64,000 nucleotides of DNA from Apostichopus japonicus (Eukaryota; Echinodermata; Holothuroidea; Aspidochirotida; Stichopodidae): contig NC_092569.1 in the NCBI RefSeq assembly GCF_037975245.1, positions 26,859,168 to 26,923,167 on the forward strand, read 5' to 3'. The notes beneath the pieces were generated by a model, which was given only the letters and a program-made list of their open reading frames with translations, did not search any database and was not told the origin of the DNA. The first letter of the stretch is position 1, and the number at the start of each line of letters is the position of its first letter. This document shows, piece by piece, positions 2,036-63,300 of the stretch. A program made the translations under genes and the position numbers.

Positions 2036-3091
2036 CATAGGCGTACGGGACCATTTCGGTTTGGGGGGGGGGGGCGTTCAGAAACTTTTGTGCCCAAAAG
2101 TTCCCGTGACACTATCTAAGCGGAGCGCCACCATCAGTTGGCGCGTAGCGTACAAGATTTTTTTTGGCAAAATATGCCTCTCAGGTTGCCGGAAATGGCA
2201 CTTCTGAGGCCTTGCAAGTTGCATCTAAACATTCTTTATTTTATAATCTCACGTTTAGAAATTTTCACTTCCCAAAAAATTTGGTAAATTAGAAGAAGAA
2301 AAATTGGTAAAATCACTTTGAAGGGGAAAATAGGACAGTATATTTTTTAAGCTCCTATTTAGTTACGGTATTTATTATATTAACACAGTACTCAGCTATC
2401 ACCAGAAAAACATAAATTGTAGGCGGGAAAATGTTGCTGTGTCGGGTAAGACTGCAATTTGTCTTACCATGGAGCTATAAACAGATGTTTATAGCTCCAT
2501 GGTCTTACAAAAAAGTGTAAAAAATAACAAAGAATATGATAAACCTGTACTTTTAGGCTTGAAGGCACCCCCCCCCCCCACCATCCATGAAGAAGAAAAT
2601 GTTTCTTATATACACTCATGTCGGGGATGTCCAGGTATACAGTTGACTAGTTCGAAAAAATGTTTGGTGCGGTTTTTTTCACTTCAGAGACTGCTAATCG
2701 CCATGCATGCATGTCACTACTATTGTGAGCGGCGTTCCCTGTTAAAATTTTGGGTGATAGTGCAAAAAGCGTGGTAGCCCAGATGAGCTGCGCTTACGGT
2801 GGTGTTACACGGAAATATTCGGGCATCATGATGCTAAATAAAGAAAATCATTAGGCCTATATCAATATTAATGTCACAAAACAAATAACACAGAACGCTC
2901 TCCACGGAATTGTAGGGCAAAAACATGAAAAAGATTCGGGCAAGATACTGCATATTTATATATATATTTTTTCTCTTCTTAGGCTGCCCGAACTTTCAGG
3001 ACTTTTGCCCTAATTTCTTGTCCTCTGGAAAAAAAAAATTGGGGGGTAGTCTGCCCCCTGCCCACCCCCCCCCCCGCCTCGTACGCCTATG
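2036..3091. mobile_element. non-autonomous hAT-type DNA transposon, 1056 bp
   Basis: The element starts CATAGGCGTACG and ends CGTACGCCTATG, a perfect 12-bp terminal inverted repeat. It is flanked by an exact 8-bp duplication, ACTCCACG, at 2028-2035 and 3092-3099. An 8-bp target duplication with short terminal repeats is the hAT signature. No transposase is recognisable. It contains long G and C runs and an internal block at about 2110-2156 shared with two other elements in the window. A 34-nt hairpin with its own flanking repeats sits inside it (2461-2508), so that insertion came later. The intact target duplication suggests a fairly recent insertion. Confidence 0.88.
2461..2508. mobile_element. 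mini-hairpin insertion 1 with 7-bp flanking direct repeats
   Basis: Positions 2468-2501 form a perfect 16-bp inverted repeat with a 2-nt loop; the arms begin CATGGAGCTATAAACA. It is flanked on both sides by GTCTTAC (2461-2467 and 2502-2508). Three similar structures occur at 60643, 61711 and 62651. The flanking repeats look like a target-site duplication. Confidence 0.6.
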
Positions 3092-3099
3092 ACTCCACG

Positions 3100-3890
3100 G
3101 CAGTGCTAGATCAAAGAGCTGGATCATTTCTACTAGCGGCAAATGATAATTTTCTCCGCTTCAGACTGAATTTCAGATTGAAACTGAATTGAATATTTCA
3201 AGATGAACAGTCGACGTTTCGAGATAAAAAGTCTCCAAATTTCGTTGAAGCCGAAATTTCAGAAACAAAATGTCAGCTGAATTTGAAGTTAAAGTGTCGC
3301 CCAATTCCCCCTTCCATGTTTATTTTCTAACCGTGCAAATAGATTACGTCATTGAAACCGTCACTCCTTATTGGTCCAAAGTAGTACCAGTAGTTATTAT
3401 AGGACAGTATGATACATTGCCGCGATGAGACGAGACGGGAAATAAGGCTGCTAAATGCCGATTATTCGTTCCGAATGAAACAAGGAAGGAAAATCCAGGG
3501 AATTCAGAGATTTAGTTGAAACCGGTTGGCATTTATTTTGGAGTTAATATTGAGTATGTTTATAACTTCTTATCAAAAGATATCATACGGAGAGGCGGTT
3601 GTACGTACGCGACTTCGGTCGAGCCTACAGAAAATAATAGTATTACTATCAAGATATTACACCTTGCTATATATGACTAGGCCCGTAGTACCACGCCTAG
3701 TTATTGCCTATACTATAGGCTTGGCCATAGTTGAGGTAACATTACATATTGAGTAAGGTTGACTAGGTCTAACGTTAGGCCTATACTTATTGCGAACTTG
3801 TGAACTAGTACTAGTAGTATAGTTGCGGTAGGGATGTTTGCCTACAAACTAGTGAACTAGCACTAGTAGTAGTAGCACTGGTAGTAGTAG
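3100..3890. other. no gene recognised; short TAG-rich repeat near the end
   Basis: Nothing coding is supported. From about 3800 to 3895 the sequence is rich in CTAGTAGTAG-type trinucleotide repetition, directly before the next transposon. Confidence 0.45.
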
Positions 3891-3897
3891 CTAGCAC

Positions 3898-4275
3898 CAG
3901 TGGCAGAGCTAGGGGTATTGGTCAAAGGGGGGGGGGGGGGGAGAATGGCTGTAGGGGCACTTTCCACACTATCTAAGAGTGCCACCTCAGGTTGGCGCGG
4001 AGCGTACAGACATTTTTTGAGTAAAGATACATCCCAGATCGCCGGAATTGACCCTTTCCTGGCCTTGCTAATTTGCAAATAAATGAAGAATAAATAGGTG
4101 TCATCGCCAACAAAATGTGACAAATGTCAATAGGTAGATGAGAGCGCAATTAAAAAGTAAATAAACGCAAACAAGTAAAAAGTGGTATAAAGCTGAAAAA
4201 GGCGCCAGCAGTCCATTTGAGTCCGTCAGGGGGGGGGGGGAGCCGCCCCCTGACTGTATGGACGCTCCGCCACTG
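3898..4275. mobile_element. hAT-like MITE, 378 bp
   Basis: It begins CAGTGGCAGAGC and ends GCTCCGCCACTG, terminal inverted repeats with one mismatch. CAGTGGCGNAG-type ends are typical of hAT elements. The 8-bp flanks GCTAGCAC and GCTGGTAC match at six of eight positions, consistent with an aged target duplication. It has internal G runs and shares an internal block (about 3967-4010) with the elements at 2036 and 17067, although the terminal repeats differ. Confidence 0.7.
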
Positions 4276-4453
4276 GCTGGTACGTACTTGCTGTAGGGGG
4301 GGGGGGGTTAGGCATACAATTTCAAAGGCAATATTAGTATTAATCGCACTTAATATGCATGGCTTAAACCTAACAATTGCGTAAACAAGTTTGTTACAAA
4401 TACTATTACTAGGCTGATATCAATATTTTCTTTCATTTATGTTATCACCAAAG

Positions 4454-4570
4454 ATGTGGTACTTGTGGATAAAGAGGATGAAGCAGAGATCAACAAAGAT
4501 GCTCTTGTACCTCTCATTGAAATGGAGCCAAACACAGCCATCAAAGTGGTAAAGAGAGATGGAATGTGGG
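4454..4570 (+). CDS. isolated exon resembling the second half of a CIDE-N domain
   Basis: Read in phase from an AG acceptor (4452-4453) to a GT donor (GGTAAGC, 4571), this 117-bp segment encodes about 39 residues beginning DVVLVDKEDEAEINKDAL and ending in a Lys/Arg-rich VVKRDGMW. The layout (hydrophobic strand, acidic Asp/Glu stretch, paired hydrophobics, then a charged loop before Trp) fits the C-terminal half of CIDE-N domains in DFFA/ICAD, DFFB/CAD and CIDE proteins, which act in DNA-fragmentation control and lipid droplets. I could not find the N-terminal half upstream. Two possible downstream in-phase pieces, both ending in a stop, are at 5963-6024 and 6064-6104. It may be a fragment of a real gene or a stray captured exon; the domain assignment rests on pattern alone. 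Confidence 0.42.
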
Positions 4571-4734
4571 GTAAGCGACAATTTAGCTCCAACCTAAACC
4601 TATCCAAAATACTCTGTTGACATGAATAATCAGCAGTGTTTCGAAATGTGTGCATAAAAGTTGGGGATGTTCTTTTCGTCAAACACACTAATGAAGTCTC
4701 ATGTGAAGGATTTCCCCGGTTCCTTCAAATATAA

Positions 4735-5936
4735 AAGCCCAGTCACATCTCACCGGATTGCAATAACGGAGAGGGAACGAAGACAAAAAATGGCACTCCG
4801 TTGATGTACGTTATTATCGTTTAGCATGCGGTTCTCCTCCGTCCGTTTACGTTTCATTACCGGGAGGGTCCGGTTTGTCCGGTGACGATTTTGAACATGC
4901 ACAAAACTTTGAATGGACATCCACCGAAAACTGTCTCCGTTATTTACTCGTTACTAATCCGTTGAGCTTCCGTTTTATCAGTTTCTCATGCATTTTGTTC
5001 GTTCTGTATGCGTTTGGCATACTGTATTTCTCCGTTCGTCTCTGGTTATTGCTATTGCTCACCGGATCATTAACGGACAAAGAACGGATGAAACGTAGAA
5101 GTACAGTACCTATACCGTATATTCAACGGACGCTAACGTAGAAATAACGGAAGTGTAAATGAATAGAACTGACAATGAACAGATAGGTAACGGACGTTAC
5201 ACGGAAGAAACGGAAGAACTTAGGCCAGGAAAGTATAACAGACAGACATAGAACGGAGATGCATCGTACCTCCACCATGTCCACTCCAAGCGTCCCATGC
5301 CTCATTCTGCTCCTATAACCTCTCCCGTCAACACCTACATCATGGACCCTTCAAAAAGATTCAAGCTTCAGACCGCAGTGTCAGCTTTACAAGCACAGAT
5401 GCGCATCACTGAAGCCAACATCAAGACCAATGAACTAGTCAAGAAGAGAAGGAAGAGACATGCTCGGCGTAAATGCTGGTCTAGGGCCTTGCTAGGTCCA
5501 GAAGACGGCAGTTTGGTCTTTATGACCAACTAATGCAGGAGCTGTGAATGGAAGACCAAAATCTTTCATCAACTTCATGAGGATGCCCCTGATTTTGAGG
5601 CACTCCGGAGGCCCAGGTTTTAGACCGTTTCTTCTCCGTTGTTAGTTCGGTATGTCCGTTACTTTTCCGGTACTGCAAAGTTTTGTATGTTCTTTATCCG
5701 TTAATTGTCCGTTGGTGTTCATTAGTTCGTATGTTGTTATTCCGTTGTTCATCCGTTGTTCGTCCGTTGCTGTCCGTCCCTTGTATGTTTGTAATCCGTT
5801 TTCACCGTTGAACTTCCGGTACGTTGCAATCTCCAGATGCATGCGCGACAACTTTTGCCAACGGAAATAACCGGATAACTGTTATTCGCGAGTACTCTTA
5901 TCCGTTTGTGTAATCCGGCGAGATGCGACTGGGCCT
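4735..5936. mobile_element. PIF/Harbinger-like DNA transposon remnant, 1202 bp
   Basis: The ends are inverted repeats of about 25 bp: the left end starts AAGCCCAGTCACATCTCACC and the right end reads back as AGGCCCAGTCGCATCTCGCC. Both sides are flanked by TAA (4732-4734 and 5937-5939), matching the 3-bp TWA target duplication of PIF/Harbinger elements. Long subterminal regions on both arms are packed with ACGGA on the left and the complement TCCGT on the right. The centre carries a broken transposase-like frame (see 5297-5623). Confidence 0.78.
5297..5623 (+). pseudogene. N-terminal fragment of a Harbinger-type transposase, stop-interrupted
   Basis: The frame includes an ATG at 5342 followed by a basic run (KKRRKRHARRKCWSR), then a stop at 5531-5533. 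In the same frame it continues with WKTKIFHQLHEDAPDFEALRR to another stop at 5621. HARBI1/PIF transposases commonly start with an Arg-rich segment, a W-x-R-P/A-like motif, then 'L-x-x-E-L...D...F...LR'. The match to that layout, plus the Harbinger-type ends around it, supports the call. There is no DDE domain, so the element cannot be autonomous. Confidence 0.55.
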
Positions 5937-5962
5937 TAACATTGGAGGTGTTCAAATTGCAG

Positions 5963-6104
5963 ATTCCCCATCAGTTGACAGGAGAGTAATTTTACTTATG
6001 AAAGAAGTTTCAACTTTGCTCTGAACGTGGATGATTCTTAAACAATCTTTAACTATCAAACAGGTGGCCTGAACAATTATGGGTTGAAGGGAATCACCTC
6101 TTGA
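5963..6104 (+). other. two candidate terminal exons for the CIDE-N-like exon
   Basis: Two acceptors here fit the phase left by the donor at 4571. One starts at 5963 and reads 19 codons to TGA at 6022. The other starts at 6064 and reads 13 codons (GLNNYGLKGITS) to TGA at 6102. Neither shows family similarity, and at most one can be right. Confidence 0.2.
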
Positions 6105-6984
6105 AAATTATAAGTGGATTTCCCAAGGTCTTTGAGTACCCCCGGCGAGAATTTCAAACACGCCAGGACTTGGAAGAACAATACTCATATTATGAAAGTT
6201 TTGTAGGCCTATAATTTATGTTATGTAAGCTCTGATTATGAACCTAATATATTCATTTCAATTTTCAAGAATACTTGTATTTTGTTTTCCACACGTAATT
6301 TAAAACTCAGTCATCTTGGCAGCTCTTCAGAAAGTCATGCTGGTGGTCGCTGTTTTAGCCAATTGTCAACATATCTGAATGCAGAATGCAGGAGTTCGTT
6401 GGTAAACATAGCAGTTGCTAACATGATGTACATGGGGAAGTATTTTTTTTTATCATCATGATTTCATATGAATTTGATGTATACAATAACATGTTTGTAA
6501 ACATTGATATATTGAGACTTGTAACCAGTATATGCTTATGCCCAATTGATATAAAATTTACATGGTCAACCCATGTTAAGGATATTCTGTTCAGGTCAAG
6601 TATTAGCAACATGTTCCAATTTTCCTGCTTAAAGGCATGATTGCATTGCAATGAACTTGAAAGCATTTCAATGTACACAGACAGAAGGTACGTATGCAGC
6701 TACTGAAGTGAGCTGTATGATGTCAAATTGTAGTTAGCAGCTGCCGAATTAAGATGTAAAATGCATGTTTAGTGGTGAAAAGTACTTTCATTAAGGTAAA
6801 ACTTGAGCTGTTGACCTCACTGCAATATCGGAATGAACGTTATAGATCTCCTAGTTGAACATACTGCGAGCGGCTGTTGCGAGCTGACACCTTGCCAAAC
6901 TTTGTCTGTTCAAGGTGAGAATACAGCTTGTCTAATGAACATAATATTACAGTACAGCGAGCGAATTGTAATGGGTCCATATGA
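6105..6984. other. no gene recognised
   Basis: Only short AT-rich frames on both strands; no repeat boundaries or splice-bounded coding segments seen. Confidence 0.45.
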
Positions 6985-7441
6985 CAAGATATTAAAGACT
7001 TAAGAGATAATTTAGGACTAAACGCTCACAGGTCTTCATGGCAACCGAAGTTAAAACAATAGGTCGAAGATCATTCATGCGTGAGATTATTGGCTTTTTG
7101 GGCACAGGGATGATACATGACTGTTTCGAAATAGATCATGGAATGGACTGTGTAGTGAAACACATATTGAAGATATGTAAGTAAATATACCAGCTAACTG
7201 TCGACTTGCACAATCTCTAAGCACACGGGGGGATAGATTATAAGGGCCAGCAGCCTTAGATGGAATAATCTTTCTAAAATTATGCCGAACTTCCTCTTTA
7301 GTAATCACCGTCAAAAAGGGCACAGAATTTGTGAGAATTAACACATAGGAGGTTGTCAACTCTGGTCGAGAAAATCATGACAATCAAAACGGCTGTAAAA
7401 TGCATTCAAAGCATTAGCATAATCAATGATTTGAGTCCGTC
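6985..7441 (-). pseudogene. decayed non-LTR retrotransposon reverse transcriptase (Rex1/CR1-like)
   Basis: On the minus strand, reading down from 7441, pieces in more than one frame give NALNAFYSRFDCHDF, then VRHNFRKIIPSKAAGPY, RVLRDC and QLAGIF, then NDLRPIVLTSVAMKTCERL. This order (a KAAGPDG-like motif, RVLRxCA, QLAxxF, then N-D-x-RP-I-x-LTS) is the N-terminal part of the reverse transcriptase of Jockey-group non-LTR elements such as Rex1 and CR1. Stops and frameshifts separate the blocks and there is no endonuclease or catalytic YADD segment, so it is a dead fragment. The edge at about 7441 abuts a G-run. Confidence 0.75.
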
Positions 7442-7459
7442 GGGGGGGGGGGGCATCAC

Positions 7460-8110
7460 CTCAAGCCCTGCTCACTAATTAATGTTCATAATATCACATT
7501 GAACATGCATTATCATGTACCCGCTATCTATCAACACCTTCACACAAATTATGATTCAATTCTGAAAATGTTTACATTTGACCCTGTGACCTCATTAATA
7601 TTCTTGAATTGTGCACCAAAATCAATGGGGCTCTGACTTTCGGTTGCGGAGTTATAAGCATTTGAAGATTTTTACGTTTGACCCTGTGACCTCATTATTG
7701 TTTATTAGATGAGCACCAAAATCAATAAGGTTCTTATACTCAGTATGGCGCATAAATGTTTCAAGTATGACTTCAATACATATACTTTTCATTGTCCAGT
7801 TACCGTATTGACAAGCTATTTTAGTGAAAATCAACTTAAGCCCCGCCCCTAATAAATATGCATAATATCAACTTGAACATATGTTACCATGTACCCACTA
7901 TCTACCAACACATTTAAACCAAGTATGAATAAATTCTGACTTTTGGTTGCGGAGTTATTAGCATTTGGAGATTTTCACATTTGACCCTGTGACCTCATTA
8001 TTCATTAGATGAGCACCAAAATCAATCTACTCACTATGGCGCATCTATGAACCAAGTATAACTTCAATCCAACTTGCCATTCTTGAGTTATCATGTTTAC
8101 GAACCAAGTG
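7460..8110. repeat. interspersed repeat with internal reiteration
   Basis: Phrases such as TTTGACCCTGTGACCTCATT, GAGCACCAAAATCAAT and ATGTACCC(A/G)CTATCTA recur two or three times. Related wording occurs at 26640-27250 and 36920-37680, so this is one dispersed family. There is no coding content; the element class is unknown. Confidence 0.6.
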
Positions 8111-8112
8111 TG

Positions 8113-8155
8113 TCACATACACACACATACACCCTGCACACACACACACACACAA
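8113..8155. repeat. (CA)n microsatellite
   Basis: Interrupted CA dinucleotide repeat (CACATACACACACATACACC, then an uninterrupted CA run). Confidence 0.85.
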
Positions 8156-8159
8156 AATC

Positions 8160-9521
8160 CCATAAGATATCAACAAAGATGATCCTCTATTACTTTTCGA
8201 CATTTTTTTTTTTGACGATGATCATTTACAAGTCAGAAATCATGGCTTGTTCTTATCAGTAAACCTGTAAGTTTAAATTTACATATAGTATTTTGTTCAC
8301 TCCAACGCTTATCCGTGATATTTCAATTGAGGGTATTATATTTAGTTGGAATTTGAATAAACGAAATAGGGTCATCAGAAACATCATCATTTTTTTCCTT
8401 TTAACTTTTTTTTTCTGGTTTCAATTTTTCTTGATACATCATTTTTTTAGTTTCGTTCATATCTCGTTCATATCTACTAGAAACGCGAATTGAACGGGTT
8501 TTAACTGTGCGGTCATTATGTGTAAACTGTTGGTTAAAGCGATTTTTTTCATTGTTATGACGTCATTTTAAAACTTTTGTAGGATTGGACGGACCTACAG
8601 AACATAGAAAGGAAAGACAGCCCAGCAACAACTAAATATCTAAGTTATTGCTCTGTCTAATCTCGACTAATTAATCCCATCTTAATCCCAGCTCCAAAAG
8701 CAAGCTGTACTGATAACGGCAATGTATAGAAATCAATTGATCGTACATAATACACGAAGCATTTATTTCGTCATGAAGCCATTAATCATAAATTTACGAG
8801 TAATTTTGAGACTTTCTTGGCTGTTAACCTCCTAATTCACGTGATTACAGATACGAAATCGGCTCATTAATTTTTATTGATCGACGTACGAAAGCAATAA
8901 AGTTATGAAAAGCACGCATTTTGGAACTTTATGGCGGATATTTATTAATGTTTGGTTAGTATTTTGGATGTTTAAATGTACGGTTTACTGTTATGTTAAT
9001 CACCCTGAAAAGAAAAGAAACGATGAACGCTTGTGTTGGTTGCCTAGGAAATCTATTGTGACTAAGAAAGAAATATACAGAAGAAATAGAAGAAGAACAA
9101 ATATCCATTTGAAAGGTACAACACGCTTGCTCGATTAAATCATATATTATTATGAGCTGTTTTAAAATCCACACCAGACATCAATTGGTTACGGAGGAAC
9201 CCGCCCAAATCATCCGCACCAGCGCTAGGAAATTTCCGTTAGAAATATTCTCCATTGTGAAGGACATTATATGCGGAGGACCTGTGTACTTTTGTTCATG
9301 GAAATGCACTTTCTATTGGATTTGTATCCTTACAGTTCAGTCTATGTCTGATAATAAGACGAGGATCCATTGTTCTTAAGGAAATTTGCATCGCTTTTTT
9401 TTATGGAACTTTGAGCTGAGGATTCATTTGCAAATTATTCTTGAATTTTCTTTACACCTCAATAGCTAAAGTGTCTCTGTGTGTTGGCTTTATCATAATT
9501 ATTTTTGTAACAAGAAGAAAC
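8160..9521. other. upstream region of the fibrinogen-related gene; promoter not resolved
   Basis: AT-rich, with no recognisable repeats or coding exons. It should hold the promoter and 5' UTR of the gene starting at 9522. I see no TATA box or initiator that I would defend. The stretch before the ATG (about 9441-9521) is an open frame without an in-frame ATG of its own. Confidence 0.4.
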
Positions 9522-9591
9522 ATGAAGCTTTCTAAATTGACCATTATCAAGCTTTTGATGGTTCATCTAGTAACTACTGCTTTGACTAAAG
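9522..9591 (+). CDS. FREP exon 1: signal peptide
   Basis: ATG at 9522 starts MKLSKLTIIKLLMVHLVTTA, a short Lys-containing N-region followed by a hydrophobic core. The donor GGTAAGC follows, leaving phase 1. The frame is open further upstream, but this is the first true ATG in it. Confidence 0.7.
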
Positions 9592-15500: not shown

Positions 15501-18500
15501 TGAGCCCACTCTTTTTTAATTTCTTCCTTTATTTCTTCAAGCCATCTGGGTTATTCTGATTATTAAGCAGCAAAGTAGTACTACAATGATCAACCATACT
15601 CCCAACTTCCCAAGTTCTTCAACACCCGATGAATTCAAAGTTTCGTCTTTTCTTGCTGGCCATTAATAAGGGTCAACAATTTGGTAACAGAACTGAAAGT
15701 TTGTCGACAAAAGCCGAAGCTATGACTCATATTACTGATTTGTGAATTGGGATACAAATGTTCTACTTATTGACATGTCAGACAGGCCTCATCGCACGAT
15801 TGCGGTTAACCTACTGACAACGTTGTTTCCATTTGTACCGATCGTACACACAAGGTACCCAGTTGTCGTTACGCATTTATTTAAGTTTGATGTTTTCCAT
15901 TTTCGTTACGCCATGGAGTACCTTCATGGTTACACCTATCGTGCATCAGTTTGAGAGATTAGTATCAAATTAGTTTCGAGTTGGTGAACAAAGCTCTTTA
16001 GGACATACTTGTAACAGTGCACTTGGTAATTACACTGTGATGTTTAACATTAGGCCTTTGTTGATTGGCTCACAAGTTAATAGTAATCCTATCGTATAAA
16101 GGCAGTGAGCGAATGAGCCACTCGCCAAAATGGCGAGCGTAATGCATATTTTGCTCGCCAGTCGCAAAATTCTAGTCGCCATTGGCGAGTTGGCGACCGT
16201 ATTTGTCGAGGCCTGCTGATCAGATACATATTCTATATCCATACGAGCTGAATATGTGTGAGTGTGTGTGCAGGGGGGTGGGGGTGGGGGGGGGTTTGAG
16301 TAGTGGATGTGGTACTAGACTGTTTCTGAATTTTTTATGTTGCATTTTCTTAGATATTACGTTCACTCTTTAAGTAATTGCAGGACAGAGTTATAATGGT
16401 ATGTTCTCTAACATTGAAAAAAGAAATCAAAGAGATTAAAGTGAAAAGAAAAAAGATTTTCAGTAACGTATGCATTGAGTAAAAATATGATTTGTTTTAT
16501 TTTACTAACAGCTCATTACGATGGCTATCGTGGTACCTTCAAATGTACTAACAGTAACACGAGAGAGGAAAAAGGTAGGGTGATATAATCATTATTATTT
16601 ATATACGTCTACAACTTTCTTCCCGTTCGTCCGCCCAGCTTTTGGTCTAAAAATAAAAAGTAAAAAAATCAGAAAAGCCATTTTGACGAATTCATGAAAA
16701 GCAATCTGTTTTCTCTAAAAGTGCCCTTTTGTTTAAAGCTTAGCAAATAGGAAATTGAATAGGCTAGTGCCATTTGCTGAAAATAAATTCAAAACTTGTG
16801 GAACAGCATGTGCAGTGGTTCCATTTTGTCTGGACGTATGATATGATTTAGTGGTTTGCAACCTCAAAGCCACATATCTCGCTGCCCTTCGAAACTCAGT
16901 TTGATCCTATAACCCTACAAAGAGGTACGTAAGTTGCGTTAGTTATATGAAAGGCATGATGTAACAGTGGGATACATTCAACAAAGGTTGCATCATTTAA
17001 AGCCTATATTTCTCGGGACCTTCAGCCAGTTTCTGCGGTCAAGTTAAATGATATTAGTATCATATTCAGGGTTCTGCCGATGCCGGTCGGGCCCGACCAG
17101 CACGCTGAATTACCGACCGCCACAATCTGCCTGAGCGACTTTTCCGACCGGCACTTATTTTCGATAGGAACTCCAAAAAACAGCTCCATATAGCCGGAGG
17201 GTCGAACGTACAGAAACAATCTGTTTGAGACTAGGGGAAATCCAGTTCATAACTGTTCAAAATATCAAACACATCACAGTGTGTCATACTTAGTAAAAAT
17301 TACCAGAGTTCCGCATTCCAGACCAATGACTGTTTTCCGTTTCCAACTCCCGATCGTACTTTTGATAGTTCCATTTATATCTATATTGATCGCGCGAGAC
17401 ACAGGCACTGTCCAGCTAGCTAGTACACATACGGCCGTTAACCTACATGAGAAGCTCAGTGTGTATATATCATAACTGTCGTAAATTAAGTCAGTTCCGG
17501 CGAGAAGACTGATAGAAAGAAGACAACCATTTTTCTGAGTTTTGATTTATTTAATAGGCACCACCGGCTGGTCTGTACTCTGGTGCTCCAGATATTTGTC
17601 CTAACTTTTTTCATTAATAATGAAAAATTCCAGACATGAGATCTCATTTCAAAGCTGTCTACATGTGGCTCAGAATACTCGGGATGGGCCGTTTCCGGCC
17701 ATCTGGGGGGTTTCCAAAACCCAAAATTTTCTTGTACGCTCCGCGCCAGCCGATGGTGGCGCTCCGCTTAGATAGTCCTGCCGGCACTCAATCCACCCTG
17801 GGCAGAACCCTGCATATTTTGTTCACATCTGTACCAATGTTACATCCAATGCCAGCTAGCTACCACGTAAGCTAACAACATGTAGTGCTTTATGCGTTTA
17901 CATTTGATGTTGCATGCAGGATTTTGATAGGGACTGTATAGTCATTGACATTAATACCCGTAAGATTGTGAAAGGATTTTTTATTTGAGGCGGTTCAAGG
18001 GTTATTTAATCAATTTTATGTCGTCTTTATGGAAAAGCAATGTCAAATATACTGTATGGTGTGCCCATTATGAACTTCTAATTTTTAACCAGTGATATAA
18101 GAAACAGCCAACAACAACAACAAGAACAAAATGTGATATTTATTTTATTAATTAGTTCCCATAACATTATTTAAAATATCACAAACATCACAAACATCTA
18201 ATAAGATAGAAATATATTGTTTTGTTGAATTCATTCTATTTGCAGGGTTAGACTCAATTATGAAACAATTTATTTTGTTATAAATGACACAAATAAGATA
18301 ATAAAATTAAAATATATTCTTGTTTTATATACAATCACATTATGTTCTTTATCTCTAACTACTAATTTTCATAATTAATTAACCATGTGAAGTTGTCGGC
18401 TATGTTTTATATTATCGGCAAAACAAACTCAAGATTCCACGGCAATTTTATGGATATGTCTTGGATTCAGAATACAACAATGAGCAACCATCACTGGATG

Positions 18501-30500: not shown

Positions 30501-33500
30501 GAGGAGCTTCATCAGTAGTAGCCTTTGAATATTTTAGATTCGGCCTGAGCGTCTCGTTCTCAAAATGCATCTATTTCCTGTGCACGAGTTTTTATGCACT
30601 CATAGTGCAGCTATAAGAGCATCTAAAAGAGCTTCGTGTGAACCTTGGGAGTCAGCAGATTCTTCGTTAGTACAAAACCTTGATTTAACAAGTAAATCTT
30701 TGAGATTTTGGGCCCTTTTGTAGGCTAGAATCGGTTCTTTTGGAAACAGTTTGGATGATTCCACGTGTTGCGAGATTAAGTGCCAATGTTTCAAAAGTGT
30801 TTTTTCAAATGCGTGGTTTTGATATGGGGTGTATAAGTGAGCTTGAACACAAGTGCTGGTTCCTTTTTTTTAGCTTTGGTAGTGAGGTATTGCCCACGGT
30901 TTTCAAATTTTATGCCTTTCGTGGCTGAGGCAATTTCCTCTTTCTTATTGTTACGGAGTCACAGTTTCTCTGTGTAAGCCTTCGGGGCATTGTATATTCC
31001 AGGGTTGCCAACTCAGATTCGAATATTTAATGTCAAACTCTCTATTGTTTCACCAACTCTCGTCACAAGTTTTCAAGTATCGAATTCAATCAGGCATAAT
31101 GGCCTATTCAATAGTTTTCCTCCCAGATTAAGACATGGGGTTACTACGATCGCGGGCCCCTGACCACGCGGGGCCAGGGCCCAGTGGGCCCATGCATTAA
31201 GACGGCCCTGATCCTATAGCATAGACGATATATTGTATATAGATGTATAATATGACTGACGGAGGTGGATGGACGGTAAGTCTAGTATGACATCCTATAG
31301 TATGTGCGATATATTGTATATATGTATAATATGACTGACGGAGGTGGATGGACGGTAAGTCTAGTATGACATCCTATAGTATGTGCGATATATTGTATAT
31401 GTATAATATGACTGACGGAGGAGGATGGACGGTTAGTCTAGTATGACATCCTATATTATAGACGATGTATTGTATATGTATAATATGACTGACGGAGGAG
31501 GATGGACGGTCAGTCTAGTATGACATCCTATAGTATAGACGATATATTGTATATGTATAATATGACTGATGGAGGAGGATGGACGGTTAGTCTAGTATGA
31601 CATCCTATAGTAGGTGCGATATATTGTATATGTATAATATGACTGACGGAGGTGGATGGACGGTAAGTCTAGTATGACATCCTATAGTATGTGCGATATA
31701 TTGTATATGTATAATATGACTGATGGAGGAGGATGGACGGTTAGTCTAGTATGACATCCTATAGTATGTGCGATATATTGTATATGTATAATATGACTGA
31801 CGGAGGAGGATGGACGGTTAGTCTAGTATGACATCCTATAGTATAGACAATATATTGTACATGTATATAATATGACTGACGGAGGAGAATGGACGGTAAG
31901 TCTAGTATGAAAGTAAAATAAATGTAAGCCTAGATATTAATGGATGGATGGATGCATTGATTAATAGATGGATGAATTAATGGATGCATGGCTGGATGGA
32001 TAAAAGAATGAATGAGAGCATTAATGGATGAATGATTGACTGACTGAATGAATGATTAAACAACTTGTGTCTAGGAAGGCCGTTATATCCTGCTGCTGTC
32101 AATGTAGCCTGTCTTGGTATCTTAATATCAGGGATATATTCGTCTTTGGTTTGTCAATAAAGGGAAGCCCATTTCAGATGGGAAAGCCTTGAATTGCTCA
32201 GACTGGATAGAATTCCCACGTTACCACATTAGCCGTCCAAAAATAGAATCTACAACCTGTCAAGATGATAGGTTTCATAACTTCCGACCTGCCGCACTTT
32301 GTTCACTATAGAAAATTGCATGCACTAACTCCCTTTATAGTGTTATATAATTATCGTCAGAACATTTTATTACTGAATTAGGTGATACTAAGTTTGGGCA
32401 AATATTAATGATTTTTTAATCTAAATATTCTTAATTGTCTGAAAATGCAGTCATTGATACTTGTACGAATTAGTACATGAAGGTATACAAATGTATTTAT
32501 TTCCTTCTATCATTGAAAAGGTATTCCAACGTCGCGTTAATGGTTCTGTTGGCTTTTATCGTAACTGGAACAGCTATAAGGAAGGCTTTGGCGACCCCCG
32601 TCATGAGTTTTGGTTAGGTAATGATAAACTGTCCCACCTCACCAATCAAGGTGACTATGAAATCCGGATTGACGTGGTGAGCAAAGATGGATTCCCCTAC
32701 TACGCTAAATACGACTTGTTCCGCGTCAAGGATGAATGTGATAACTACAAGCTGTCTGAGCTGGGAGCTTACACTAGAACTGCAGGTTGGTATTGCAGCA
32801 TTAAAGCAACTCTTCGAGAGTTGTCACTTGTCTCTAATTTTGCCAAATCCCAAATTGTTCAAAAGTAGATTTCAATTGGTAATACTGCTATCAGACACCC
32901 ATCGAGTAAGGGGGAGGGAGGGGAGGGGAAGGGGGTAGATGTCAACCTTGCGACTGTGCTACTCATCTGGTACGTGTCTCTCTTGATTATTTACTGTTCT
33001 GATCTATTTTTACTTGACTTGCGTTGAATTACTCACCATCAGTTAAGTAGACTGCATACTTCACTATTAAAGCTGCAGGTTGGTATGCACAATTTAGTTT
33101 AAATTTGGCTAAATCCCAAAAATTGTTTAAAAGTACATTGTAATTGGTAATATTGCTATCAGACATCCATCGAGTAAGGGGGAGGGAGGGGAGGGGGAAG
33201 GGGGTTAGATGCCACCCTTGCGATTGTGCTACTCGTCTCGTACATGTATGTCTTTTTTGATTATTTACTGTTTTGATCTATATTTACTTGACTTTTTTTA
33301 ATTACCATCAGTTTAGTAGGCTGCATACTCCACTGTTAAAGCTTCAGGTTGATACGCAAAACTAAGAGGCATTTGAGCTTTGCCTACTGTTTGTCCTCAA
33401 ATTTGCCATATTAAAAACTTTTTCAAAAGTAGATAGCAATTGCTGTCAGACATCCATCGTGAAATGGGAGGAGAGAGAATTATTAGTTAGTAATTCACTA

Positions 33501-37752: not shown

Positions 37753-37758
37753 TTTATT
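37753..37758 (-). promoter_or_regulatory. candidate poly(A) signal for THOC1
   Basis: AATAAA on the minus strand, about 850 bp past the stop codon at 38611. It is the first canonical hexamer I found downstream. The implied 3' UTR would include the repeat at 38154-38256. Confidence 0.35.
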
Positions 37759-38610: not shown

Positions 38611-38909
38611 TCACAGTTTATCATCCGTCTCCAGTTTCTTCTTCTGGAAAACCGACTGCACGATGTCGTTTAGTCCGCTCTCGGTCAGTGCCTTGACCAA
38701 GACCTCCTCGCATGCTTCGTTGCCCTTTTCCTCGAGCCAGCTCTTTAAGACATGTCTGCTCTGCTCTTTGACTTCAGCGAATTCTGTCTGGGTGTTTGAA
38801 ATTTCATCTTCAGTCAAGCCTAGTTCTACTGCCAGAGTTTTCCAGTTGGCCCCCAGTTTGAGGGCGACAAGATCCATATCTTCAGGAGAAACTTTGGTCA
38901 CTTCCTTTT
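38611..38909 (-). CDS. THOC1: THOC1 terminal exon: death domain
   Basis: 299 bp including stop TGA; acceptor CTTTTACAG. Encodes [36 protein letters not shown] and so on, with the six-helix pattern, the W-x-x-L-A core and a final LNDIV. In vertebrates this C-terminal domain of THOC1 binds partners and was linked to apoptosis. The frame is open upstream of the acceptor to 39060 by chance. Confidence 0.96.
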
Positions 38910-41900
38910 CTGTAAAAGAAAGAAATTTCAATCGTGAAACTTTATGACCAGGACAAACAAAGATAAAAATGTCATACCATTTATTGTAGCTCAACATACC
39001 CAACTCAAACCAAGTCACTCTGTCGTATTTTGGTTTACTTTGGTCAATGCTATTTATCACCGTTGACCCACTCCAGCCCCACCCAAGTCAACGGGAGAGG
39101 ACACAAAACCGAAGTCAATATTTACAGGCTCAACCAGAACCAGAATGAAGAATAAATCAGCTCTGTGATCCAACTGATGGTGCTGGGAGCTTTCGATGAT
39201 TTTGACTATCATCTCTTGCGACCGAGAAAATAATAAAAGGTGCCATCGGTACCTTAAACTGGCAGCTGCACGCTGGTGCCGAGCCAGCAAATTGGTGGGT
39301 CAATCTGCCACTGACCACAACCCATCCAAGGTTGATCCAACTTGACACACTCACGTAAGCTCTACCACACAAGCTCCAGCAAACCTCACCAATTAGACTT
39401 TGACCTATTATGACACAGTTCTGCCCAAATTAACACTACCCAACTCAACCGAAACTCACACAAACGATTCTGAGCCAAACGGACACAGACCCACTCAAGT
39501 TACCTCTTCTCAGCCCAAGACAAACAGACACCAACATGATTTTGAGCCAACATTTCCAAACTACATTAATGAAACTTAAGAACATGACACTCCTCTAACC
39601 TGACCCCACCATGACCTCACATAAACTAAGATTATTAGAAAGACCATCATACCCTCTTCTCCAGCTTTAAGCAACTCGTCGTTATCCATGGCTTCGGTCT
39701 TGATTTCTTCAACGTTGTTGAATTGCTGTAGATGAATATTTGATACAGTTATCTAATTGGACATGTCGCTATGGGGCTGCAAGGAGGTTACACATAAGAT
39801 TATGACTTTTGAGTTTATAAATGATGACATCTTGCGTTGTAACCAAAGTCAATATAAATATAAAACACATGCAAACAATTTTGCCAGGTTATAAGGAAAG
39901 ATGCATATTAAAGACAAAAAGTAGGAGATAAAATGGGGAGACATTGCTTCTTTGAAATACCAAAGATCTAGAACAGGTTTTCTGACTTTGGGGTTACAGG
40001 TCCTGCTTCATGCCAACATAGCCATCTAGCCGTAAATTGGAGGCCATCGCTCCCGTCTTACAAACCGAGTCTTTGTCAAATGGAAACAAAATTAATCTGA
40101 ATAGAATGGTTCACTCCCAGAGAATGACAGGAAAATGAAACCAAGAGTATGGAACAATCGCTGCACAGTTTAACAAAAGAAATTTAATCAACTCATAATA
40201 ATGAGATGATATAAACTTCAGCTGCTCTGTAATATCGGTGATCATTGACATAGTATCAAACTGGAGGGCACAACCAGGGCCATCAAAAGCCAGGTTGGGC
40301 CCAGAGACAAATATATTACTGGGCTCCACTTTTGTACTATTCATTTTTCCTAGAGTTTATTGTGAAAAATGGGAACATAATTTAATTCTGTTATCTCATA
40401 TGTTTCCACATTTCCTGGCTCGTAATTGACAATGGGGGAGGGGGGGGGGGGTAGCCCTCCGACCTCCACCTTTCCCACTCAGGTCTGGACACATCAAATA
40501 AGGGAGACAACATGGTCTGCTAGACACCAACCACATTTCAAAGCTCGCTGGGAAACCTCTGAATTTTGGGTATGTCATGACCTCAATACTTATAATAGGA
40601 AATAAATGTACAGACTAAATAACAACAATTTCAATACAGTGCATATAAAAGGCTGGTGTTTGAGTATTAACATACATGTACGCTTATATGTTGAAGCCAG
40701 TACAGTACATATGCAACATACAGCCAGTACAGTACATATGCAGACCATCGGTTATGTGAAGCTGTGGGGATCTGAAAATATCGATAGTTTAGGGTTGATA
40801 AAATCCTTTTATTTGAAACCCTGGACAACGTATGCCCGGGGTGAGAGGTCATGCTGGACAAAGTATGGTGCTGTGACCTGTTCAGCCAGATGTATGACCA
40901 TCAGCCCTGTGACCTGTTCAGCCAGATGTTTGACCATCGCCCCTATGACCTGTTCAGCAAGATGTTTGACCATCGCCCCTGTGACCTGTTCAGCCAGATA
41001 TTGGCCCTCCTCTGGATGCATTTAAACCATTAATATATTGTGCTCTGAAGGATACTTCAGCAATGATATTGTTACTTTATTGCAATAATATCAAAGTGTT
41101 TTAAACTCTTGAGATAATCTAACATCTCAGCAGAGCCTACTTAAATTTCCATATAACAATCAGGGCTAAAAATATGTCTTTGTTACAAATTATGAAGAAC
41201 AACTAGCAGCTAACTGGACCCCTCTGGCCAAGTCCAAAACAATAAAAGGCAGAGGAGGTGGAAGATGGTTCTATGTGGAAGGAAGCTGGGGGGGGGCGGG
41301 GCGGGGGAGAGTGCAAATTTTGAGGGTGCAAGAGGACAGTCATGCCAGTTTAACATGAGAGTGGAACAACAAAATCACCTCAAAACTTCCCAACAATATG
41401 GATCCTCTGTGCTTTCTGTATCAATTTTTTCCATATTGGATGATTTTTTAATTTTTCAGTGAAGGAACTCCTTTTTAATCACATTTTTCTACAGTTCTCC
41501 ACACAAAGGAGTCTTCTAACTACAAAGTTAAACTCGTTCATAGAGACTTACAAGTTCATGAGATAGGACCCATTTAAGTTTTCCCCCACCCACCCACCCC
41601 CCCTTACTTCTCATCTGTGGCACCACTACCTTTAACAGCTAGTACAGATATTGCACAGCTGGATATGAAACATATGGCAATTCATGAAATGTCACTAGCT
41701 ACTTAAAACTTACCGGCATTTCCTTGGCCAGTTTTGTGGCCATCAATTCCAGATACGCTGGTATTGTCTTAACGGACGGCTGGGCAGCGATGGAGGTTGT
41801 CTGGAAAAAATGGGGGCTGCGTCTTGCCAGGAGCCTCAGGGCTTGCCAAGCATAGTTGCTATTATTAACAACTCTGAGTCGAAAAAAACGAAAAAGTAAA

Positions 41901-54360: not shown

Positions 54361-54398
<38 letters not shown>

Positions 54399-57300: not shown

Positions 57301-60300
57301 TCAGGGTCCGGTGCAGGTTTGGGGAAATATTTGATCAATAATAAATTATTCTCAATATATGCAATATATGATAGGGAGAGAGAGAGAGAGAGGGCTTGGG
57401 TGTGATGGGGAGGTTTGGAAGGACGGGGTCACAGGCTTGATGAGAGGGGTTAGGGAGAGGGGCTATGGTCCCAGGGCTCAGGGTCCGGTGCAGGTTTGGG
57501 GAAATATTTGATCAATAATAAATTATTCTCAATATATGCAATATCTTGATAACGAGAGAGAGAGAGAGAGAGAGGGCTTGGGTGTGAGGGGGAGGTTTGG
57601 CAGGACGGGGTCACATGCTGGATGAGAGGGGTTACGGAGAGGGGCTACGGTCCCAGGGCTCAGGGTCAAGTGCAGGTTCGGGGAAATATTTGATCAATAA
57701 CAAATTATTCTCAATATATGATAGCGAGAGAGAGAGAGAGAGAGAGAGGGGGCTTGGGTGTGAGGGGGAGGTTTGGAAGGACAGGGTCACAGGCTTGATG
57801 AGAGGGGTTAGGGAGAGGGGCTATGGTCCCAGGGCTGGGGAAATATATGGGATAAATAACAAATTATTCTCAAGATATGCTAAAGTAAAAATGAAGACTT
57901 CAAGAGAGGGGGCCCAGCCTGGATCTTGATGATCCTGTTTGGGGGGTTGGGGGTGGGGGGTATAGGTAAGACGGATATGAGAGGCTTACTTATTTTACAC
58001 AAAGTACCTGTATTGGGCCCTCTAGATTCTCCTTGTTATAGAAAGTCACATTTTCCTTGTTGAAGTTGCTCATCAAATTTAGACCTGTCAAAGAAATGAT
58101 AAAAGACATTAAATGCAGAAGGATGTACCACAAACTTAATTAAAACAATTGGAGAGTACTTTAAGGCATTCAAAATAGTTTGAAGCGAGAAAGAAAAGAA
58201 AATATCACCAAACTAATTATCTACCTGCAAAAGAGCCAGCTGTGTAGGTAAATATGAATATTTATCTAAGTTTAGAGGGCCTGATCTCTGTCCATCCTGG
58301 CAGTCTCTCTTCTTCAGAGACTGAGATCTTCCCGCTGATCAAAACCTTTGCGATCCCTTTAACTTTTACATAACATATTTTGTCACGAATAAAGTCAACG
58401 AAAGGCGACTGAGAACTTTATATAGGTCTCAAGGGAGCCAGTTTTATGGGTATGATTATTGGGCTTTTAGTGCAAACTCTCAATGTAACATAAAAAGGTT
58501 ATCGGGGGGGGGGGGGGGCCATTTTGATATGTCCTTTTAGAGGTATCGTTTCAATACTTCAACCATTTTACTACAGAGTAATCTATAGTTAATTCAAAAT
58601 ACCTTTTCTGAGTACAACAGAACATATAGAAGTTAGAGGGCCTGTGAAGATTAGCAATCCTTTATCCTCCTATTCAATCTTTCCTCTTAATACAATGTAC
58701 AGGGTTGTATCTGTAGGGGGAACCTCTCTTTTATACATCTATTTTTTTTTAATATTCATTGCTCATTATTTCCCAATTTACATAACTTGTCTCTCCTCCA
58801 CCTGTGTCTCTTCATGTGTTCTCACTTTGTTTTCATTTCAGTAATAGCCTAGAGCTGAAGATTCCAAAACTTACTGGTTTGGATATTTACAAGTTATGAG
58901 CTTACCTGTCTCCTCACAACCTTAGCACCTCGTTCTAACGTGCCAATAAAGTCCTGGTAAAATAATAACACTGTGCGCCCTCTATAACCGGACCCCCCCC
59001 TGGGTCACTGCCCTTCCTTCTCATGAGACCACTCCTTTAAAGTTTCCCCAAAACTAACTGGGTTGGGGATTTACTTCGCTCCTCTCTTCCCTGTCTTCCA
59101 CTTCACATCTGCACTTTCCCATCTACATAAACTATGAACTGGAATGTTTCAGCACTGCGCCCTCTCTCCCTGGGACACCGCCCACTTGCACATTCTTCCG
59201 GTTTTGTGTTAATTTCAGTGATAGTAATGAGATCCTGGCAGGACCGTAACGTCAAGCACTCTGACATTTAAATTATATTTATCAGCTACTCAGGCTTTTT
59301 TGCTGTCGATAAGCTTGAAATTTTTTTCCAGATGGTGAAATCTTGGAGATTGATTTACATCCATTGATCAAAGTTCGGCTCATTGATCGTCATTCGATCT
59401 TGCGAGAACCAAAGTTTATTCTAATAGAATATCTTCGTTTGCAATGTTCACTGTGAGTGATTACATTCGGTAGGTCTCAAAAAAAGGTCTGATTGAACTC
59501 AAAAAGATGTTTTTATGATCCAGAAAGCATAAACCTGCATATTTAAAATATTGGGTGAGAAATTTCTCCCTTTTCTCGGTGTTTGCCACAGAGGCAGACG
59601 ACGCACTATTACTGTTCGTGCAATGGAAAAATGGTCTTGGCTTGGTATCAATATCATACACTGTCATTTATAAGTACTGTGCATAGCCCACCAAAGGCAG
59701 TGCACTAATGGTCATAAAAATGGAAACCACAATTAACAACTCGGATTCAATAAGCAATATTTTAGCTACCATTTAGCTACCAATAACTGCCTGGAAAATC
59801 CTTGATGTACAGTTTCTATCTATATAATACATGACAGTTCCTATAACAATTTGTATGACCCTTTACAGGTCACAGACTCAAATATGAATCAAAATGGCTG
59901 CCAGAGTAGAGTCTACAAACAGGTATATATGTCATTGGGTGACTAGTGCACATCGGGCATGCATGTGCTCGACGACGGCCAAACAACAGACTATTATGAC
60001 GGTCATAGAATAACATGTTTACAATCTATTGTTTGCATCGTAAAATGGTGTTCAGTTTCATCTTGTTGGACGGGCGTGTCATCCAATACCATGTCGAGTA
60101 AGGAAAGAGAACAAATATAATATTGCTGCTAAACAAATTAGACTTGACCGTATCGAACTGTCACTCAAACCCATTGAATATGACTTTTTATTAAGTTGTG
60201 CTCTTAGATATTTCCCATAATTCATAGGGCAAACTGCATGGATCTATTAAGATCTAAAAGCAGAGATTTAATCTGTTCCATATCTTCTTATAACGATATT

Positions 60301-63300
60301 ACTGATCATTTACAGAAAGTACGGGTACTATTATGCACAGTGTAGCATGGCTGTCGGCATTACGGTGACTATGGGGCATGACATTAAAGTCGGTACCTCA
60401 AATTCTTTCTGTACCTGGCCCATGGGTAATAATTACTGGAATTTTCCAACAAGGTGGAAAGAAAGTTATCTTAAGATATGTCTGGAAGCTTGCTGATGGA
60501 GATTGCTTGAACTGAATTTTTTTGTCCTTAGTCCAAGAGGCTAGGTTTTTTGACATTCTGAGCGTCGATTCTGAAGGGGTGGGGCCAGTCCTCGTGGAAG
60601 ATCCTGGGTCATGGGGCCTTAACGGCTGGCATCTGACAGTCTGTCCTACCATGGAGTGTTTTACCTCCATGGTCCTACGTTGTTTGTTTCAGTGGACAGA
60701 AATACAATGGTGCATAATTTGCATAAATTTCCTTTTGTGACTGACAAACCAATCATCTTGAATAAGGAACTGAAATGATAGACCATATCATCAGTGTACC
60801 AGCAAGTTCTGACAGATTATTAAGTTGGAGAACACTTTAACCTTCCCAACCATACCATTAACGACATGTCCCTACAGGGGATTGAATCCTTAGGTAGCTG
60901 CCCTGACCTAGTACGAATCAGCAGAGAGAGGCTGTGGATGCAACGCCTTCGCACCATTCAACCTCATGGGCTCAACATGCAGGAAGAACATGACTAACTT
61001 TTCTTCTTCTGTCCCCCCCCTCCATCAGCCCTTGTCCCCCATCCCCCCATCACTCCTCTTCTCATAGCTCTCTTCCACCCTTTTTTTCTCCACACCTTTC
61101 TGTCTTAGTCCTTCTCCAGCTTATTCCCTACCCCCTTCCCTTAATCCTCTCTTTGTCCCTCTACTGCTCATCTCCTACCTCTCCTCTTCCCTGGTTGGTT
61201 TCTTTCTTTCTTCTCTCCATCCCTTGTCTACTAATCCCCTTACATCTATCTCTTTGTGTTCACCATGCTCATTAGCCTGTCTGTATTCTGTGCGTGTTTT
61301 TGTCCCTTCTGTTACTGTTACTTGTCAGTTAGCCTCTGAAGAAGATCTTGCTAGGATCGAAATGTCAGGTCAACTGACTTTTACACATTCTCTTACACAG
61401 GCACTCTAGTGGATAAGCAGTTTGCTAACAGTTTTATTAGATTATTAAGTTCATGAATTGGCCTACATTATGGCCACCAATTAGGTCTCTGTTGACAGTA
61501 TCAGCTTACAACTTACCAGTTTCTACTATCAAGTTACAATGTTTCAGCTGCATCAATAGTATTCATTATCTCATTATGGTTTGTATTACAGTAACTAAAG
61601 CTCTTTCATTCTAGTTTTGTAAACAGTTACTTGATCCTATACAAAACAAGGCCAAAAAGAAGAAATAACAAAACAATTAGGTCTCAGATGACAGTACTGT
61701 AGATCTCTACTTACAACCATGGAGCTATAATCTGTTTATAGCTCCATGCTACAACTTACCAGTTTCTACTGTCAAGTTACAATGTTTTAGCTGCATCAAC
61801 GATATTCGTTTTCTCGTTCTGGTTTATATTACAGTATTTTAACTATCTATTCAGAGTATGTCATTCTAGTGTTGTAACAGTTATTTGACCCTAAAAGAAA
61901 ACAATGCTCAAAAATAGAAACAAAGTCAAAAAAGAAAGAAAAATGAAAAAGAAGAAAATTAAATAACCCAAAAAATAACAAAGATGTACTGTAACTTTGA
62001 TCATTAAATTAACTAATTAATAATTGTTTTAGGAGAAAGAGATATATTTAACTGTCATAAGCAGTTCCCCACACAGCTAAGAAAAGTCATTTTTATCATA
62101 ATTCGGGAGATGATGATCGAAGATTTAATGTTCGTTCTCACAATAGGCCGAAGACACAAAAGATGGAAGACTATTAAAAGACCAAAGTAAAAAAGACATC
62201 GTTGAGCCAACTGCGCATTGCTTTATTTAACTCATTTTTGATTCTTTAAACTTACAGTATTACTGCATTTGTCTCCTGTAAAATGGACATGGGATTTACG
62301 TGGTTTGCTGAAACCCAAAATTTTGAAGCTCATAACATTTACCTCCCAATTAATGGCATTGATTTCAGTGTTGATTAAAGCAGCATTTTGCGTCCTTTTC
62401 TATGATTGTTCTCAACCTCACTGACTCCACGATGCCATAACGACATACATAACTAGCTTATCTATTTAAATCTTACTTCAAAAGGTGACATAAAAGTCGA
62501 AAAATTTGCAACTCTCAACTTTGTTTTTCTCCAAGATATTTTCCGCTGGGATCCCAATCAACCTTGCCCATAATATGAATATTTATACACTACGAACGTC
62601 ATTGGCCAATACGTAATACAACACCATGCTTGTGTACAGTCTATATGGCAGTTGTACCAGGGAGTTCCATAACAACTCCCTGGTTGTACCAACGCAAAGT
62701 CTTGAATCTACTTTTAGCAACGGCTCATAACTAAACCTGCATCTCTGATTGGTTGAATTCAAACTAGTGGGCTTGGGGGAACTTTATGCGATTAAATTTG
62801 AATGTAGAATTTGTCGTGGACACTTTTCTCATTATCTGCAAATATCCTTAATTACTCGCCAATTAACGTTGTTGGCAGGGAAAAACTTGGCTAATATCTT
62901 AGTTTGCTGTTTTGTGATTGATATATGTAAAAACTTGATGGACATGTCAAAAAAGTAGAAAACGGTGACCAAATGCAATATGCCGCTTTAAACACAAAAT
63001 GCTGTTCTAACATTCTATCTTGAAAAGTATGACAATCAAAAGTCAATTTTTGGTTTCAGAATCCTCACTGTATGGGGGTGACAATTAGATCACATATTTA
63101 CAAAGGTATCTCCCAACTGGCACAAGATGTTTCTTAGCTATTTATGGAAGTCATGACACCTTCATATTCGGTTGGGTCGGTTGGGTTGGTGTCTCCTTCG
63201 AGACAAAATCAGTAATTGTGTTCTTACCTGATTTTTCATCTAGCGGGAAGAACTTTGCGAGGAAGAGTTGAATTCGCCCACAGAAAACGGTATTGTGCGC

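Follow-up and report, generated by a model that had tools for sequence, protein, structure and literature searches.

Hairpins enclosed by target duplications in the genome of Apostichopus japonicus: probable excision footprints of P-superfamily transposons

We analysed a 64,000-nucleotide stretch of the genome of the holothuroid Apostichopus japonicus (NCBI RefSeq assembly GCF_037975245.1, contig NC_092569.1, positions 26,859,168 to 26,923,167 of the forward strand; hereafter the window), in which four tiny hairpins are each enclosed by short direct repeats. An earlier note on the same DNA had proposed that these hairpins are minimal mobile elements of 22-34 bp, at the extreme of the miniature inverted-repeat transposable elements (MITEs). 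Genome-wide sequence comparisons lead us to conclude, with high confidence, that each hairpin is instead the healed excision footprint of a P-superfamily DNA transposon, the remnant left after a much larger element had inserted and been cut out. These comparisons documented parent elements with the same ends and a P transposase, duplicated targets, empty sites, arms built from terminal repeats and a limit on their length. Scars of this kind are already known; what is new here is their scale, the re-use of their targets, and the two-gene layout of the parents, whose transposase has a RAG1-N-like start.

Background

The precedent comes from the Drosophila P element. Its transposase cuts the two strands 17 nt apart, an unusually long stagger (PMC7776569), and excision leaves 17-nt 3' overhangs on the chromosome ends, whose end joining gives the target, CATGATGAAATAACAT, filler, an inverted copy and the target again (PMC2895639). 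These published scars were collected at one engineered locus in repair-mutant flies (PMC2895639), in contrast to those described here, which are natural and number hundreds to thousands. Among the titles listed by a literature search, none reported natural P footprints at genome scale.

Results

Hairpins of the window

Direct reading of coordinates and flanks confirmed the four hairpins (Table 1), with flanking repeats exact over 7 bp at sites 1, 2 and 4 and matching at six of seven positions at site 3. Scanning the window for exact 7-bp direct repeats around exact 7-bp inverted ends (core of 18-60 nt) returned three exact sites, against none in 20 order-1 Markov shuffles. A looser scan (at least 6/7 for both repeats, ends CA...TG, core of 14-45) recovered the four sites together with a weak fifth candidate at 15905-15935, against five matches in the 20 shuffles, that is 0.25 expected per window.

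Parent elements of the P superfamily

The longer relatives with the same ends envisaged in the earlier note exist as full P-superfamily elements. Three full-size elements of 9.5-12 kb have matching ends, terminal repeats of ~35 bp (beginning with CATGGAGCTATAAAC or CAGGGAGTTGTTATGG) and P transposase open reading frames (ORFs), while shorter copies were retrieved by searching with a hairpin arm plus further sequence, many footprints being among the matches. Among six loci fetched for candidate ends, L007-L009 held both ends and L010-L012 one end only. A 7-bp target duplication and terminal inverted repeats were present in all six elements seen end to end. Repeat A was read from the elements in L008, L009 and C17:16770475-16781120 and repeat B from C3:19626415-19638456, the two ends of an element agreeing over 35 nt (repeat A) and 33 nt (repeat B). 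The whole elements were found through a 157-aa fragment of L007, which had 67 genome matches, since its diverged relatives (32-43%) lie 3.5-6 kb from matches to the P-type catalytic domain PF21787, on the opposite strand; the fragment gave no Pfam match and only two chance-level PDB matches.

The transposase ORFs of the elements at C17:16770475, C17:20911684 and C3 are 673, 635 and 625 aa long, and all three matched PF21787, the RNase H-like P-type catalytic domain, above cut-off (2.2e-26, 3e-27 and 1.8e-29). The GTP-binding insertion PF21788 and PF21789 were above cut-off in downstream exons of both elements examined, those at C17:20911684 and C3 (L020, L021), and for the two ORFs compared the Drosophila P transposase 6p5a was the sole PDB match at E <=0.01. 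The P-type helix-turn-helix PF12017 was above cut-off in one ORF (L021) and below it in the other two, and an N-terminal THAP domain, such as Drosophila P and THAP9 possess, gave no match at E 0.1 in the three transposase ORFs, an upstream THAP exon not having been searched for. At the N-terminus, RAG1_imp_bd (PF12560) matched at 9.7e-11, 1.4e-9 and 0.0017, the last below cut-off. Each element also carries a second ORF, 30-43% identical among the three and on the strand opposite the transposase, giving a convergent two-gene layout; the two that were scanned had no Pfam match above cut-off.

The catalytic core and the GTP-binding insertion assign the parents to the P superfamily. The CATGGAG and CAGGGAG hairpins of the window alike carry the ends of P-superfamily elements of their own genome. 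The repeat C of site 2 is inferred, no intact repeat C element having been found or fetched. Around the six strongest PF21787 matches (L001-L006, loci of 3.4 kb), no exact CATGGAG or CAGGGAG stood at a plausible end position; these copies either belong to other P lineages or have their ends outside the loci. A CATGGAG hairpin with flanks matching at 4/7 lies within a whole P element, at the 3' end of its first transposase ORF (L020:2543-2569), and may itself be an excision scar.

Genome-wide counts and target duplications

The genome searched was the window's own assembly (671.6 Mb), and the control was the reversed pattern. The cores for which the earlier note had suggested a genome-wide search proved abundant: CATGGAG-N6-34-CTCCATG had 1,748 matches against 54 in the control, a count in which one site may appear twice through overlapping spacers. 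With flanks specified, GTNNNAC-CATGGAG-N6-30-CTCCATG-GTNNNAC had 282 matches and CAGGGAG...CTCCCTG with GTNNNAC flanks had 620, both against 0. Spacers of 0-5 with GTNNNAC flanks (cores of 14-19 nt) added 17 sites (control 0), 16 of which have identical flanks.

A flank-blind sample consisted of 49 distinct CATGGAG...CTCCATG places among the matches listed, all on contig C1. Their 7-bp flanks were identical in 30, alike at 6/7 in 13 and at 5/7 in two, and worse in four, so that 45 of the 49 reached at least 5/7. Mismatched pairs of flanks were identical in 6 of 2,352 cases and reached at least 5/7 in 306; since so many already reach 5/7, the weight rests on the identical and 6/7 sites. The palindromes thus passed the flank test, and the part of the earlier proposal that saw insertion sites with target duplication survives. 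Among the matches listed, CATGGAG sites with GTNNNAC on both sides also had equal NNN in 43 of 50, some of them copies of one another, where 1/64 was expected, and the flanks of CAGGGAG sites matched in 37 of 50. Fortuitous or regulatory palindromes with no link to transposition would fit a few pattern matches (L062, L067), but the excess over the reversed pattern, with and without GTNNNAC flanks, and the 30 identical flank pairs already refute this explanation, to which we leave a vanishingly small probability.

The target resembles the 7-bp palindrome GTNNNAC. In the left flank of the 45 flank-blind sites with a duplication, G, T, A and C occupied positions 1, 2, 6 and 7 in 26, 38, 38 and 36 cases, respectively, and all four bases stood together in at least one flank at only 16 of the 45. 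The preference is real and not strict, so counts that demand GTNNNAC on both sides are low. A preferred target had been recognised in the earlier note; its description as ending in TAC is corrected here to the palindrome. Three flank pairs (GTCAGAC/GTCTGAC, GTATTAC/GTAATAC and GTTTAAC/GTTAAAC) differ at the central base alone, and the CATGGAG site C4:2614351-2614399 has the reverse-complement flanks GTTGCAC/GTGCAAC. For repeat A, the 23-mer of the intact end was counted 48 times in the genome, far below the number of CATGGAG-type scars, a rough comparison that sets the exact end of one subfamily against the scars of all subfamilies, partly copies within repeats.

Anatomy of the scars

All four window cores consist of two truncated copies of a terminal repeat placed head to head (18+16, 7+15, 13+18 and 9+18 nt), and a complete split into two arms was obtained for 72 of the 116 sites entered, using repeats A and B, whose sequences were taken from whole elements, and C, D and F, inferred from the footprints themselves. 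For repeats A and B, each of the 31 distinct complete junctions keeps at most 19 nt, and the longest arm measures 18-19 nt in 20 of them; were junctions placed at random within repeats of 33-35 nt, 32% would be expected to stay within 19 nt. Spacers of 31-61 in the CATGGAG form gave 9 matches, against 282 for spacers of 6-30, and seven of the nine are two scars in a row. This length gap concerns the CATGGAG form, the CAGGGAG form being covered to a spacer of 34. Both the arm limit of 18-19 nt and the length gap would result if each end were cut 18 nt inwards and the breaks were then closed by end joining.

One join, between a full 18-nt arm and an arm of 9 nt with one or two bases in common, recurs across repeats A and B and the reconstructed repeats C and F. 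It would arise if one 3' overhang used its tip as a primer on the opposite overhang. Microhomology of at least 1 nt was present at 22 of the 31 junctions (41-44% in simulations) and of at least 2 nt at nine (15-16%), mildly above expectation and not decisive.

This anatomy bears directly on the alternative of ultra-short MITEs, in which palindromes of 22-36 bp would be bound, excised and re-inserted by P transposase. Identical cores with different targets do exist, the 26-nt CATGGAGGTAAAAACAGACCTCCATG being found among the 49 sites of C1 with GATCAGC, CTTGCAC, GTAATAG, GATAGAC and CTTCTAC, but recurring cores are also predicted by a preferred junction, and the 18+9-nt join is shared by repeats that differ in sequence. 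The end of the A and B arms at 18-19 nt, and the presence of two single cores of 45-75 nt against 282 shorter ones, would be odd for deletion derivatives; moreover, the cut would fall at or near the middle of the hairpin, so that cutting would consume it. The hairpins resemble MITEs in having inverted repeats between target duplications, and differ from them in having no internal sequence, a length capped at about two overhangs, and many different junctions in place of copies of one sequence. Where a MITE family multiplies a single internal sequence that moves as one piece, we found no internal sequence, varied junctions and a near-gap of single cores above 44 nt. We regard ultra-short MITEs as very unlikely, minimal mobile elements or extreme MITEs having been ruled out by the arm limit, the length gap and the recurrent joins across different repeats.

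Empty sites, copied scars and re-used targets

Empty sites, also raised in the earlier note, were found within the same genome. Site 1 lies in a repeat, of which eight of eight fetched paralogues (from 40 candidates scored) carry one GTYTYAC and no hairpin, and the filled copy exceeds them by exactly 41 bp, the sum of 34 and 7. Site 3, compared with a stretch ~200 bp upstream, aligns well on its right side and poorly on its left. The locus of site 2 is single-copy except for one partial 78% match in the genome. Site 4 is located in a dispersed repeat whose hairpin was covered by the alignment in each of the 40 matches scored out of 1,410 candidates, the window's own copy among them, which indicates an old scar multiplied as a passenger.

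Could all hairpins be passengers of other repeats, stemming from one or a few founding events? The status of site 4 agrees with this, as do two sizeable sets of sites in the arm-plus-sequence search, flanked by GTTACAC and by GTTAAAC. The near-uniqueness of site 2 and the absence of the site 1 hairpin from its fetched paralogues contradict it, and the 49 C1 sites have flanks in common in five pairs only, their target duplications being different. A passenger-only origin is accepted for site 4 and refuted as a general account, for which it is extremely improbable.

The long-spacer sites provide evidence of excision footprints succeeding one another at the same place. Seven CATGGAG sites have the order duplication, scar, duplication, scar, duplication, with the target tripled (e.g. 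C7:19920165-19920225 and C21:16369129-16369205); two of the seven, both with GTATAAC on C9, may be mutual copies. At C1:17825273-17825348, the middle GTACAAC is common to scars of two different P families, one of the CATGGAG and one of the CAGGGAG type. Since every scar holds its preferred target in duplicate, renewed insertion and excision there is the simplest reading of these tandem scars, and scars would act as landing pads.

Observations weighing against excision footprints

Several observations weigh against the interpretation of the hairpins as excision footprints. With the repeats at hand, 44 of the 116 sites yielded no complete split; they may be mutated, contain templated filler or come from subfamilies with no intact end in hand. 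One junction with reverse-complement flanks sits among the 31. The inferred subfamilies D and F (CATGGAGCTATAAACCTGGGA, CAGGGAGCTGCTACTCTAAC), which have no intact parent, reach arms of 20-21 nt, and the 18-nt limit is established from A and B. Two of the nine long-spacer sites are not double footprints, one being a lone core of 49 nt in which a piece is repeated and the other rearranged. The product of AGCT microhomology (14 nt), expected to be common, is rare (4 of the 17 short-core sites), and in flies long-microhomology joins are frequent (20 isolates) and keep almost nothing of the repeat, leaving scars to which the search patterns used here are blind (PMC2895639). Four of the 49 flank-blind sites have no duplication: L035 and L071, which are copies of one repeat, and L062 and L067, which are unlike transposon ends. 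Finally, the flanks do not match at 13 of 50 CAGGGAG sites among the matches listed, and ten of these are one amplified core with the reverse-complement flanks GTTGTAC/GTACAAC (e.g. C1:4159937-4159975).

Discussion

Proposed mechanism

In the mechanism that we propose, a P-type element would insert at a 7-bp site near GTNNNAC and duplicate this target. The transposase would then cut one strand exactly at the element end and the other ~18 nt inside the terminal repeat, leaving ~18-nt 3' overhangs of terminal repeat on both chromosome ends. The host would join these ends and fill them in, in many cases after one overhang had primed with its tip on the opposite overhang through 0-2 matching bases. 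The expected product is the target, at most 18 nt of the repeat, a shorter inverted piece of the repeat and the target again, and some footprints, such as site 4, would later have been copied as passengers inside other repeats. We infer the 18-nt stagger, the polarity of the overhangs and the priming by their tips, and for polymerase theta as the joining enzyme the only suggestion comes from the work on Drosophila. The unusual repair process that the earlier note had offered as an alternative fits such excision footprints.

Comparison with known P-superfamily systems

End-joining footprints of the Drosophila P element share this organisation, with a target duplication, a partial repeat, optional microhomology or filler, a partial inverted repeat and a target duplication; the terminal repeat likewise starts with CATG, and the longest retained arm likewise equals the overhang length (PMC2895639). 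The values differ, with 17-nt tails and 8-bp duplications in the fly (PMC2895639) against an inferred 18 nt and 7 bp here. Galileo, another member of the P superfamily in Drosophila, has 7-bp duplications with the consensus GTAGTAC, which fits GTNNNAC (PMC2775673), and differs by its long terminal repeats from the present parents, with their ~35-bp repeats, RAG1-N-like transposase start and second gene; in the main text of the Galileo paper, the word footprint is absent (PMC2775673). The zebrafish THAP9/Pdre2 is similarly a P-superfamily element outside insects, with repeats that start with CATA and an active transposase, and is distinguished by 8-bp duplications and 13-bp repeats (PMC10983969). 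A transposon of RAG1-N-like sequence, N-RAG-TP, has been described (PMC8355894), and our literature search, including the part of PMC7204232 that was available, found no description of such sequence joined to a P transposase.

A possible germline archive of excision scars

Taken more broadly, and with confidence that falls a little short of even, these results may portray a germline archive of ~1,600 CATGGAG-type and several hundred CAGGGAG-type scars, made by a two-gene P lineage (RAG1-N-like zinc region, convergent second gene), of which our literature search found no description and which would cut 18 nt inside its ends, many of the breaks being closed by host end joining and not by template repair, and the scars serving as recurrent landing pads. 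The first figure is 1,748 x 45/49, copies inside repeats included, and the second is drawn from the 620 CAGGGAG matches, given the 37 of 50 with matching flanks. The chromosomes of this animal would then hold a very large fossil record of P excision scars, a kind known from fruit flies. Natural scars in such numbers could reveal, without experiment, where an unstudied transposase probably cuts, as well as the rules by which end joining forms junctions in the germline of a non-model animal. They also caution against annotating tiny hairpins with target duplications as mobile elements. The link between a RAG1-N-like domain and a P transposase that is accompanied by a convergent second gene bears on the origin of parts of the RAG recombinase.

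Coordinates and other features of the window

Table 1. Features of the hairpin sites in the window and of the parent elements elsewhere in the genome.
Feature	Location	Strand	Basis or remark
Site 1, left target duplication GTCTTAC	2461..2467	.	direct reading and exact scan; single GTYTYAC in 8/8 fetched empty paralogues
Site 1, core of 34 nt: repeat A (CATGGAGCTATAAACAGA) over 18 nt, then its reverse complement over 16 nt	2468..2501	.	arm splitting
Site 1, right target duplication GTCTTAC	2502..2508	.	direct reading and exact scan
Weak fifth candidate, GTTACGC-CATGGAGTACCTTCATG-GTTACAC; decayed footprint if real	15905..15935	.	looser scan
Site 2, left target duplication GTCCTAC	60643..60649	.	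direct reading and exact scan
Site 2, core of 22 nt: arms of 7 and 15 nt from repeat C (CATGGAGGTAAAACAGA)	60650..60671	.	arm splitting; repeat C inferred from footprints only
Site 2, right target duplication GTCCTAC	60672..60678	.	direct reading and exact scan
Undivided TTACAAC, likely empty counterpart of site 3	61506..61512	.	related stretch ~200 bp upstream
Site 3, left target duplication TTACAAC	61711..61717	.	direct reading
Site 3, core of 31 nt: 13 + 18 nt of repeat A	61718..61748	.	arm splitting
Site 3, right target duplication CTACAAC, one base different	61749..61755	.	direct reading
Site 4, left target duplication GTTGTAC	62651..62657	.	direct reading and exact scan
Site 4, core of 25 nt: arms of 9 and 18 nt from repeat B (CAGGGAGTTGTTATGGAA), overlapping by 2 nt	62658..62682	.	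arm splitting; sits in dispersed repeat
Site 4, right target duplication GTTGTAC	62683..62689	.	direct reading and exact scan
Element, repeat A, GCCCAAC twice	C17:16770475-16781120		end-to-end reading
Element, variant A2, GTATGCC twice	C17:20911684-20921137		end-to-end reading
Element, repeat B (CAGGGAGTTGTTATGGAATGG...), GTCTGAC twice	C3:19626415-19638456		end-to-end reading
Elements of 4.78 and 4.80 kb, 97.7% alike, 35-bp terminal repeats	L008, L009		duplications GTCTAAC, GTTCTAC
Copy of 1.4 kb	L007		duplication GTTGGAC
Transposase ORFs	L019:7054-9075; L020:648-2555; L021:585-2462	-; +; +	
Second ORF, strand opposite transposase	L019:2167-2625; L020:5581-6516; L021:6535-7629	+; -; -	

One of the hairpins had been placed inside a hAT element by the earlier note, an attribution that we did not recover: the nine window ORFs of at least 130 aa contain no transposase domain at E <=0.01, shorter or decayed remains not having been sought. 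Elsewhere in the window, host-type domains were identified at 32458-32868 (Fibrinogen_C, 1.7e-27) and 38611-39087 (Death, 5.3e-14).

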